This document shows, in pieces, positions 21,782-32,246 of a stretch of 64,000 bases of DNA. This DNA comes from Levilactobacillus yonginensis. GTDB lineage: Bacteria; Bacillota; Bacilli; Lactobacillales; Lactobacillaceae. The notes under the pieces were generated by a model that was given only the letters and a program-made list of their open reading frames with translations, was not told the origin of the DNA and did not search any database. Where the stretch lies: contig NZ_OZ061549.1 in the NCBI RefSeq assembly GCF_964065165.1, forward strand, positions 1,116,001 to 1,180,000, written 5' to 3'. Within the stretch, counting starts at the first letter, position 1; each line of letters starts with the position of its first letter. The position numbers and the translations under genes are program-made.

Positions 21782-21881
21782 AATGTATTTCGCTCCTTTG
21801 CCCTGATCCATCTACTGGACCAGAGATTGATTTAATCGTCAACCGTTGAATTATACCATGAAATTATAATCGCGGCAATGC

Positions 21882-30530: not shown

Positions 30531-30983
30531 CTACTTAAGTAAGATGCAAATTGAGGCAATGTAGACCGTAGCCAGATAAACATGAGCGAGCTTATCATAA
30601 CGCGTTGCAATCCTACGAAAGTTCTTCAACTGATTGAAGAAGTTCTCAATCAAATGGCGCTCACAATAAACGTGGTAATCACAGGTCCACTTGTCTTTGG
30701 TATTTTCCTTTGGCGGAATGGTATAGACGCCTGCTTTATCTTCAATATACTGGCGAAGTTTCGCGGTGCCATAGGCTTTATCCGCGATAATATTTGATTG
30801 AGAAATATCGAAGCCTTCCAGCAACTCACTGGCAACTTGGCTATCATGTACTTGACCACCTGTTAGGCGAAAACCCAAGGGATTCCCTAATCCGTCAACG
30901 AGTGCGTGAATCTTGGTCGTTCGGCCACCTCGACTTAGTCCAATAGCTTGATTTTCGACCATACATTCGGCGTTTTTTTTACC
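30531..30983 (-). CDS. IS5-family transposase, OrfB (DDE part)
   Basis: The second transposase frame, open from about 30983 to 30531. It carries the second catalytic Asp in IIADKAYGT and the Glu in HLIENFFNQLK. It has no convincing independent start and is probably made by -1 slippage on the A8 run at 30973-30980, joining it to OrfA. The frame is intact, so the element may still be mobile. Confidence 0.85.
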   Translation of the reverse strand, partial: GKKNAECMVENQAIGLSRGGRTTKIHALVDGLGNPLGFRLTGGQVHDSQVASELLEGFDISQSNIIADKAYGTAKLRQYIEDKAGVYTIPPKENTKDKWTCDYHVYCERHLIENFFNQLKNFRRIATRYDKLAHVYLATVYIASICILLK

Positions 30984-31306
30984 CCAGTGGCCTTTTGATG
31001 CGCTCGAACGATCGTTGAATCTAAGCTCAAGTTTTCCATGTCGGGATCTTCAATCAATTCGAGAAAAACCTGTTCGAACAAGCCTGAACTTACCCAGGCT
31101 CGGAAGCGGCTATACACCGTTTTCCAAGAGCCATAGCGTTCAGGTAGATCACGCCAAGGAGCCCCGCTGCGCATGAGCCAGAGGATAGCATTGAGGGCGG
31201 TACGGTTGTCTAGGCTTGATGGACGGCCAGTCCGGTATGGTGGGAAGTATCCTTTGATTCGGTCCCACTGAGCATCTTCCAGTTCGTATCGTTTAGGTGT
31301 TGTCAT
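30935..31306 (-). CDS. IS5-family transposase, OrfA
   Basis: 123 residues: the helical N-terminal domain (WDRIKGYFPP, LNAILWLMRSGAPWRDLPERYG, split) plus the first catalytic Asp in LSLDSTIVRAHQKA. It ends 48 codons... past the first Asp, just after the slippery A8 run where frame B takes over. Together A and B give one DDE transposase of about 260 residues. Confidence 0.85.
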   Translation of the reverse strand: MTTPKRYELEDAQWDRIKGYFPPYRTGRPSSLDNRTALNAILWLMRSGAPWRDLPERYGSWKTVYSRFRAWVSSGLFEQVFLELIEDPDMENLSLDSTIVRAHQKATGVKKTPNVWSKIKLLD

Positions 31307-31468: not shown

Positions 31469-31888
31469 ATGAAAGACTTAGGCTACCTGGCTCAGGACAT
31501 TTCCATCCTGCACCGTAAATATTATAAAGATACACGGGAAGCGTTCGCCGAACTGGGGCTGAACCCAACCGCAGCCTGCGTGTTGCTCACGATTCACGAA
31601 CAGCCCGGTATTAATCAGAACCAGGTGGCCAAATCACTGGTCATCGACAAGGGATTGACCACTAGAGAGGTCAATAAACTCCAAAACTTAACCTACCTGA
31701 CTAAGACCGCCGGGGCCGGTAAAGCCCAGTTGCTCTCACTGACCGCCACGGGTGAAACCGTGGTTGACCAGGTACAAACTATTCGTCGGAGCTGGTGGCA
31801 GGCCCGGTTCGATGAAACCGGCATCGATGCACAAAGTCCCCTGATTCCCGCCATCGAAGCCGCTGTAGCTAGTATTGTTGAAAAATAA
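31469..31888 (+). CDS. MarR-family transcriptional regulator
   Basis: 139 residues starting MKDLGYLAQDIS. The winged helix-turn-helix covers about residues 45-95 (INQNQVAKSLVIDKGLTTREVNKL, split) with the wing around KTAGAGKAQLLSLTATG. AAAGGAG lies 7 nt before the ATG. The promoter carries two perfect palindromes, so it probably represses itself. No target gene follows on the plus strand; the divergent alsS-budA operon, now separated by an IS element, is the nearest candidate. Ligand unknown. Confidence 0.9.
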   Translation: MKDLGYLAQDISILHRKYYKDTREAFAELGLNPTAACVLLTIHEQPGINQNQVAKSLVIDKGLTTREVNKLQNLTYLTKTAGAGKAQLLSLTATGETVVDQVQTIRRSWWQARFDETGIDAQSPLIPAIEAAVASIVEK

Positions 31889-32246
31889 CTAGTGTTGGCA
31901 CTGGCCGCCTGCGGCTGGTGGGGGGGGGCACGCTGTGGGGCAACCCCTGAAGCCTCGAAAAAAGCACGAGTCTTCAGGGCGACTGGGAACCCCACCCAAC
32001 CCGTGGGTTTCCCAGTGCGGCCCATGTCGTAAGCCGGGAAAATACCCCGACTAACGACATCGACACTGCGTGCCCCCCCACCAGCCTCCGGCTTTAGATT
32101 GACGTTTTTCAACCTAGATCATGGTCACAACTATTTTACAAGTCAGCCATCATGGACCACCAAATTCTAAATTAGTATTTCTACTGAGCTTGCCTGATAA
32201 AGTAAAGTTTACAAATTTAAATTAATATATCTGAACTACAGACAAA
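31889..32246. other. Gene-free region with a large structured palindrome
   Basis: About 360 bp between the MarR gene and the pyrG terminator. Its first half is the structured element at 31904-32094; the second half is AT-rich with nothing recognised. Confidence 0.7.
31904..32094. repeat. Large imperfect palindrome, three-hairpin structure
   Basis: The outer arms 31904-31936 and 32066-32094 pair over about 25 bp, including a G9 run against C7. Inside are three hairpins. A (31945-31979): CCCTGAAG/CTTCAGGG with inner CTCG/CGAG. B (31982-32016): ACTGGGAA/TTCCCAGT with inner CCCAC/GTGGG. C (32024-32060): ATGTCGT/ACGACAT with inner GCCGGG/CCCCG. The result is a closed multi-way junction of about 190 nt. 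It could be a structured RNA, a palindromic mobile element, or the MarR transcript's terminator in elaborate form. No protein frame fits. Confidence 0.75.

Follow-up and report, generated by a model that had tools for sequence, protein, structure and literature searches.

Bacterial MITEs such as RUP, BOX, ERIC and Correia/NEMIS are short, gene-less, intergenic sequences of high copy number which are able to fold, and some bacterial MITEs are mobilised in trans by a resident insertion sequence (IS). REPs are described, in the available part of the source (PMC3733652), as intergenic palindromes of 20-40 bp that carry the tag GTAG or CGTC and also occur in inverted pairs, and the RAYTs as tyrosine transposases. 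Stem-loop repeats have been surveyed in genomes that include Lactobacillus johnsonii (PMC2267715 and PMC1590033, available parts). Among insertion sequences, the ISPepr1 subgroup is characterised by a size of 1500-1600 bp, 7-8-bp direct repeats, ends of the form YT-AA-YTT---A and a YREK motif (PMC2266710, available part). In the open-licence papers no description of the repeat presented here was recognised.

The stretch of 64,000 nucleotides from Levilactobacillus yonginensis analysed in this study (the window) contains a large palindrome which is very likely the core of an old, gene-less MITE-like element with the ends of an IS4-type transposase. This assignment follows from complete copies that carry terminal repeats (TIRs) together with target duplications, and from an IS with identical ends. 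The complete relatives possess the TIRs, the window copy has weak remnants of them, and the autonomous element with identical ends is present in other genera. The initial annotation had proposed a possible RNA or palindromic element; the palindromic element stands, as a dispersed and transposon-borne one with TIRs and target duplications, while an RNA gene confined to a single locus does not.

The window harbours one copy of the core, in which an outer stem with a G9/C7 run closes on three hairpins (Table 1). For the region 31890-32110 the minimum free energy is -121.3 kcal/mol, compared to -83.8 +/- 4.5 kcal/mol for shuffled sequences (z = -8.3), and none of 200 shuffles was as stable. The description first given for this fold, a 25-bp outer stem enclosing three well-formed hairpins in a closed junction, is correct for the G9/C7 stem and the number of hairpins. 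However, the fold has 26 pairs in the outer stem, a GGGC/GCCC helix groups hairpins 1 and 2 and leaves hairpin 3 outside, and mismatches conserved family-wide are present in the outer stem and in hairpins 2 and 3. In the outer stem these are a T.C mismatch in 77 of 85 and a C.T mismatch in 82 of 89 copies. On its 5' side the core is neighboured by a MarR-family gene (Pfam MarR_2; stop codon 31886-31888) and on the other side by a terminator-like hairpin of pyrG (CTP synthase) on the opposite strand, which bears out the gene identities assigned before. That the palindrome matches no known RNA family was likewise confirmed: Rfam gave no family at gathering score for the window core, the single match at E<=1 reaching 15.1 bits compared to a gathering score of 52, and no gathering-score match for ten further loci with cores or IS. 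Elsewhere in the window, an L31-Firmicutes ribosomal protein leader was detected at 21793-21825 on the minus strand (35.2 bits, gathering score 33.3).

Table 1. Coordinates of the core and its putative ends in the window, and two-ended elements from the source genome and other species.
Feature	Position or source	Strand	Length	Target duplication	Basis or remarks
Structured core module (outer stem, inner GGGC/GCCC helix, three hairpins)	31904-32093	+			Fold, covariation, covariance-model match (178.4 bits, model positions 1-180 of 180)
Outer stem, 5' arm	31907-31937	+			Starts within conserved end motif GCCTGCGG; fold and family alignment
Inner helix 31938-31941 / 32020-32023 around hairpins 1 and 2	31938-32023	+			Fold
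Hairpin 1	31945-31979	+			C.T mismatch in many single folds; columns poorly aligned across the family
Hairpin 2	31982-32016	+			C.T mismatch, corresponding columns, 78/85 copies
Hairpin 3	32024-32060	+			A.A mismatch, corresponding columns, 91/100 copies
Outer stem, 3' arm	32064-32092	+			Conserved motif CCTCCGGCT at its end, reaching 32093
Putative decayed left terminal repeat	31869-31888	+			GTTGAAAAA at 31877; overlaps MarR stop codon
Putative decayed right terminal repeat	32103-32117	-			Reverse strand CTAGGTTGAAAAACG; element end at 32117
Two-ended element L309	Source genome		565 bp	ATCCAAC	
Two-ended element L311	Source genome		327 bp	TAACAAA	Weak core match, 20.8 bits
Two-ended element L314	Source genome		275 bp	ATTAGAA	No recognisable core
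Two-ended element L312	Source genome			With one mismatch	
Two-ended elements L308, L316	Source genome			None	
Two-ended element L354	Other species		571 bp	TTTGACTAA	Two convergent cores, perfect terminal repeats
Two-ended element L355	Other species		545 bp	TAATTAA	One core
Two-ended element L356	Other species		620 bp	TTACTTA	Two convergent cores, perfect terminal repeats
Two-ended element L357	Other species		384 bp	TTATTAGC	One weak core, 37 bits
Two-ended element L358 (64-287)	Other species		224 bp	TAAGTGAA	Without core
Two-ended element L353	Other species		536 bp	No exact duplication	One core

Homologues and covarying stems, both named in the initial annotation as worth looking for, were found: matches occur by the hundred, and in 139 distinct copies 42 of the 44 pairs change on both sides while the pairing is maintained. 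Standard pairs account for 93.3% of the cells in this alignment, and 1232 cells are doubly changed compared to 302.7 in shuffles. The covariation score amounts to 0.561, with a maximum of 0.084 when the partners are slid by 1-3 columns. The alignment of the 139 copies was fitted to the model, which favours covariation; a MAFFT alignment of 23 copies agrees with it (33/44 pairs changed on both sides). In pair columns with a Watson-Crick share of 75% or more, 8095 cells conform to this pairing and 169 deviate from it, and G.T or A.C represent about 1% of cells.

A BLAST search with the window region detected 11 places in the source genome and matches in 26 of 35 genus genomes, the source genome included. 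With a covariance model (R1, 23 copies) at least 141 copies were found in the source genome at E<=1e-3, a lower bound because only the best 150 of 583 candidates were scored. The core, large and covarying and without an Rfam match, thus represents roughly 1% of this genome (141 copies of ~185 nt in 2.88 Mb). Each of six additional genus genomes harbours at least 119 to 150 copies (same limit on the candidates scored), and family-wide at least 29 of 151 genomes and at least nine of 40 genera match, with at most 17 candidates scored per genome. In a pattern scan of named genomes, Levilactobacillus makes up the majority among the matches listed, and the scattered matches outside this genus among those listed are taken as chance. 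No match was obtained by BLAST for the window core in plasmids and phages or for a complete element in plasmids; both are weak tests, because BLAST recovers only 11 of the at least 141 copies in the source genome.

The complete carriers of the core are gene-less sequences of 224-620 bp which are bounded by a 14-bp TIR (CTAAAGGTTGAAAG) and 7-9-bp target duplications, and which contain none, one or two convergent cores. Young copies at unlinked loci of the source genome are up to 94.5% alike; their shared sequence extends beyond the core to up to about 530 bp, mostly ending in ...CTTTCAACCTTTAG, and their left end, where present, is CTAAAGGTTGAAAG or near to it. The 26-nt end sequence was found at 13 places of the source genome with up to three mismatches (control 0), and none of the ORFs of at least 120 aa inside these places looked transposase-like by eye. 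Six two-ended elements of the source genome were studied, three with an exact 7-bp duplication, one with a single mismatch in it and two without any. Among nine stretches fetched from other genomes, six possess both ends, and five of these six show an exact 7-9-bp duplication (Table 1). Because two-ended elements without a core exist (L314 and L358, and L311 with its weak match), the core is not needed for movement.

Cores with a recognisable TIR are a minority. Of 331 copies, 21 have the 14-mer within 120 nt 5' of the core when up to three mismatches are allowed (7, 3 and 0 in the controls); ten of the 21 have 0 or 1 mismatch, and two of these ten belong to another genus. Exact TIRs occur in 23 of 35 genus genomes, where the control matches none, and in 28 of 201 family genomes and 11 of 40 genera, where the control matches 6. 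A blind search for TIRs with target duplications around 294 cores gave four hits, compared to 3.5 in the control, two of the four with the TIR motif, and the similarity between the outer flanks of 78 convergent pairs was not above control. The ends are therefore not visible in most copies.

This also concerns the window copy. Its left remnant is a 7-nt match to CTAAAGGTTGAAAG, which is equalled in 4.5% of the window 60-mers, and its right remnant a 9-nt match (AGGTTGAAA), equalled in 0.3%; no target duplication was seen at the window copy. By these decayed ends, the window copy would be an old insertion of the MITE-like element. Beside the MarR-like gene adjoining pyrG, two genomes (G011, G029) lack a core match, and two others (G028, G032) carry a different core where the MarR gene ends. 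The site was thus occupied in this lineage, and probably more than once. The last codons of the MarR gene (..VEK) and its stop are located inside the putative left terminal repeat. The MarR-like gene has another ending in the species that lack a core (L193, L194), and the element may have donated a new MarR C-terminus. Just upstream of the MarR gene the window contains another IS (30531-31306, minus strand) with two overlapping ORFs (DUF4096, then DDE_Tnp_1), which we take to be a frameshift-type IS5-like transposase from its appearance.

The possible source of the transposase was found in other genera, where TIR pairs lie 1562-1567 bp apart in at least five genomes. Four of the five IS stretches fetched have this length and one comprises 2814 bp, and in four of the five a target duplication of 7 or 8 bp could be recognised by eye. 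The ends of these IS are the identical 14-bp TIR of the MITE-like elements. Two of their proteins, with 451 aa each, are IS4 transposases (NF049925, 485 and 501 bits, cut-off 250) with the Pfam domains DDE_5 and DDE_Tnp_1, and both show by eye the Y(2)R(3)E(6)K motif (YGRRWQIECYFKVAK and YGRRWQIEGYFKVAK). The IS end CTAAAGGTTGAAA fits seven of the eight fixed positions of YT-AA-YTT---A, with a G and not Y at position 7. In the two-ended copies inspected, MITE and IS ends share an asymmetry, as TT continues the 14-mer at one end and not at the other. The five IS stretches gave no core match at E<=0.01. From these sequence features we infer that the MITE is probably moved in trans by an ISPepr1-type IS4 transposase. 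In the source genome a broken fragment of the transposase alone was found, 43% identical over 125 residues, and no solved structure was found for the transposase. Relatives are encoded in 211 plasmid records, most commonly from Piscirickettsia (95); Lactiplantibacillus (12), Lacticaseibacillus (9) and Loigolactobacillus (9) are also represented. An identity of 99% or more over the covered part is reached by four records, and 204 are below 60%. A spread among lactic acid bacteria by way of plasmids is plausible. The 2814-bp version (L348:172-2985), of IS4 type and with an 8-bp duplication, is ~1250 bp longer than the others, possibly due to a passenger or an inserted IS.

Core neighbours less than 650 bp apart show a distinct arrangement: 80 are convergent, 26 tandem and none divergent, orthologues of different species being counted separately. 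The complete elements with two cores (L354, L356) suggest the reason for the convergent arrangement. Convergent mates are not more alike than random cores (0.674 vs 0.677), so either the divergence between both cores of a unit is old or a part of the pairs goes back to independent insertions; tandem mates are more alike than random ones. Local tandem duplications of a core with ~100 nt of tail, at a period of ~280 bp, form arrays of two to four (L106:3133-4127, L063:864-1319, L089:4819-5286). The 3' tail resembles the inverted 5' flank with a score of at least 22 in 24% of cases compared to 3% of shuffled pairs, in a set mostly from other species; in the source genome this signal is weak (5.5% vs 2.3%, 127 copies). 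TIRs and the longer outer stems of some subfamilies account for part of it. Inverted arms of ~60-100 nt surround the cores at L061:6567-6742, L116:5282-5449, L048:2539-2726 and L080:2171-2351 and are partly explained by TIRs; long arms extend into ORF ends in a few copies, at L061 into the end of the neighbouring ORF, and along such arms small, mostly one-sided bulges are found at short spacing.

To what extent the core is maintained in place can be seen from orthologous copies in closely related species. Of 15 pairs compared 14 were kept, three rows of which share sequences; the dropped row (L163/L057), with flanks 54% and 47% alike, is not orthologous. In the 14 pairs the cores are 91-98% identical, and paired bases differ at 44 of 1808 positions (2.4%), unpaired bases at 59 of 722 (8.2%). 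Five pairs are doubly changed, all of them to Watson-Crick pairs, where about 0.5 would be expected; with the dropped row included, 43 single and 12 double changes are found in 967 pairs, with 1.16 doubles expected. Compared to the cores, 24 of the 28 80-nt flanks are less alike, one is equal and three are more alike. Cores are also lost. In G000 (L002) and G016 (L196) the whole core is deleted between short direct repeats at the core ends, with ~12 nt remaining, at L124 two hairpins are deleted between CAGG repeats, and in G028 (L013) the hairpins are gone and a perfect outer hairpin is kept. Deletions of this type are a typical fate of long palindromes.

Taken together, the complete mobile unit consists of the 14-bp TIR CTAAAGGTTGAAAG, usually a core, a spacer, sometimes a second, oppositely oriented core and the other TIR. 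An IS4-family transposase would recognise the shared 14-bp ends and move this MITE in trans. After insertion the terminal repeats decay, while the core, as seen in the 14 orthologous pairs, retains its pairing through compensatory change and evolves slowly, until it is eventually lost or shortened by deletion, in three of the four cases between short direct repeats. The core would be kept as a folded single strand opposite to the window plus strand, either as ssDNA during replication or transposition or as RNA, and this is the most likely role of the core. Whether it is in addition a functional folded nucleic acid, selected independently of transposition and kept long after the ends have decayed, appears rather doubtful to us. 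If true, transposons would have delivered to each genome a hundred or more intergenic modules of ~180 nt that act as strand-specific ssDNA or minus-strand RNA, for example in delimiting domains, as sites for supercoiling or replication, or in regulating the IS4 transposase.

The strand assigned to this role derives from the wobble pairs. With G.U pairing switched off, so that A.C and G.T are handled alike, A.C exceeds G.T on the window plus strand (82 vs 24, and 88 vs 35 in a second set). Because an A.C mismatch corresponds to G.T on the complementary strand, the wobble is tolerated on the minus strand, which is also the stabler fold in 92% of the copies. The A.C fraction is 0.671 (83 copies) for one direction of the neighbouring genes and 0.757 (65 copies) for the other (p = 0.17); as the bias is not detectably tied to this direction, read-through mRNA does not explain it. 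We read the bias as the mark of a folded single strand, ssDNA or minus-strand RNA, which it would be in our interpretation, and a strand-biased mutation process could also have produced the A.C excess. A bias present whatever the direction of the neighbouring genes is at the same time an argument, together with the covariation, the conserved mismatches and the slow change in place, for a dedicated multicopy family of non-coding RNAs, either genes or cis-regulators, in which the transposon ends would be incidental to a few copies. Such a family should not be deduced too readily, since covariation and a stable fold alone do not imply a conventional non-coding RNA gene. Around 294 copies, sigma-70-like promoters reading into the core are not enriched on either strand. 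An excess exists solely in the 5' flank in the direction away from the core (4.1% vs 1.7% in shuffles), presumably from the promoters of adjacent genes. Counted without a control, stretches of five T occur in the 40 nt that follow the core in 6.5% (plus strand) and 7.5% (minus strand) of the copies, and in 21.8% of the 5' flanks. Nor is there a strong relation to gene direction (83 copies same/same, 65 opposite/opposite), and copies between divergent genes (23) are fewer than those between convergent genes (66). Since complete elements with TIRs, target duplications and a core occur in several species, and about 1% of G.T/A.C cells is low for RNA, we regard the non-coding RNA family as improbable.

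Two further explanations have to be weighed against the MITE-like element. Functionless palindromes might keep their pairing by template switching between the arms (quasi-palindrome correction), an arm homogenisation which has been described (PMC8604942, available part). The nearly pure Watson-Crick pairing with few wobbles agrees with it, and so does the remnant at L013, a perfect palindrome including an end that was once mismatched, just as correction predicts. On the other hand correction would erase the very mismatches which are found in most copies, and it means turnover and not prevention of change, whereas the divergence of paired bases between orthologues is 3.4 times below that of unpaired bases; such a neutral origin is therefore very improbable. 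Hardly to be credited at all is a repeat of the REP/BIME type that would be mobilised, as folded ssDNA, by an HUH (Y1) transposase from the RAYT/IS200 group. The carriers show DDE-type TIRs and target duplications instead, even though a palindromic, intergenic, high-copy nature, inverted pairs, conserved stem mismatches, the strand bias and eight Y1 transposase matches in the source genome would all be in line with it. As to a Y1/RAYT mobiliser, the eight matches are to NF047646 and none is above the NCBIfam cut-off; five of the eight Y1 loci were fetched, with no core at E<=1.

With the MITE-like element as the preferred reading, the carrier and the transposase family of the core are now open to testing, and the difference between decayed ends and conserved cores raises the question whether gene-less mobile elements seeded structures which the host now keeps.

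In comparison with the known systems, the cores resemble REPs and BIMEs in being intergenic palindromes that also occur in inverted pairs, as far as these are described in the available part of PMC3733652. They differ from them by a core of ~180 nt, by core ends of GCC..GGCT and not GTAG or CGTC, and by DDE-type ends of the element. The partner IS is similar to ISPepr1 of the IS4 family in its size, 5'-CT ends, 7-8-bp duplications and YREK motif (PMC2266710, available part), but the window feature has no transposase gene and is therefore not the IS itself. Like RUP, BOX, ERIC and Correia/NEMIS, the element described here is short, gene-less, intergenic, present in high copy number and able to fold. 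In contrast to these MITEs it is built from one or two modules of ~180 nt in which 42 of 44 pairs covary and mismatches are fixed, it has IS4-type ends, and it is distributed over nine genera.
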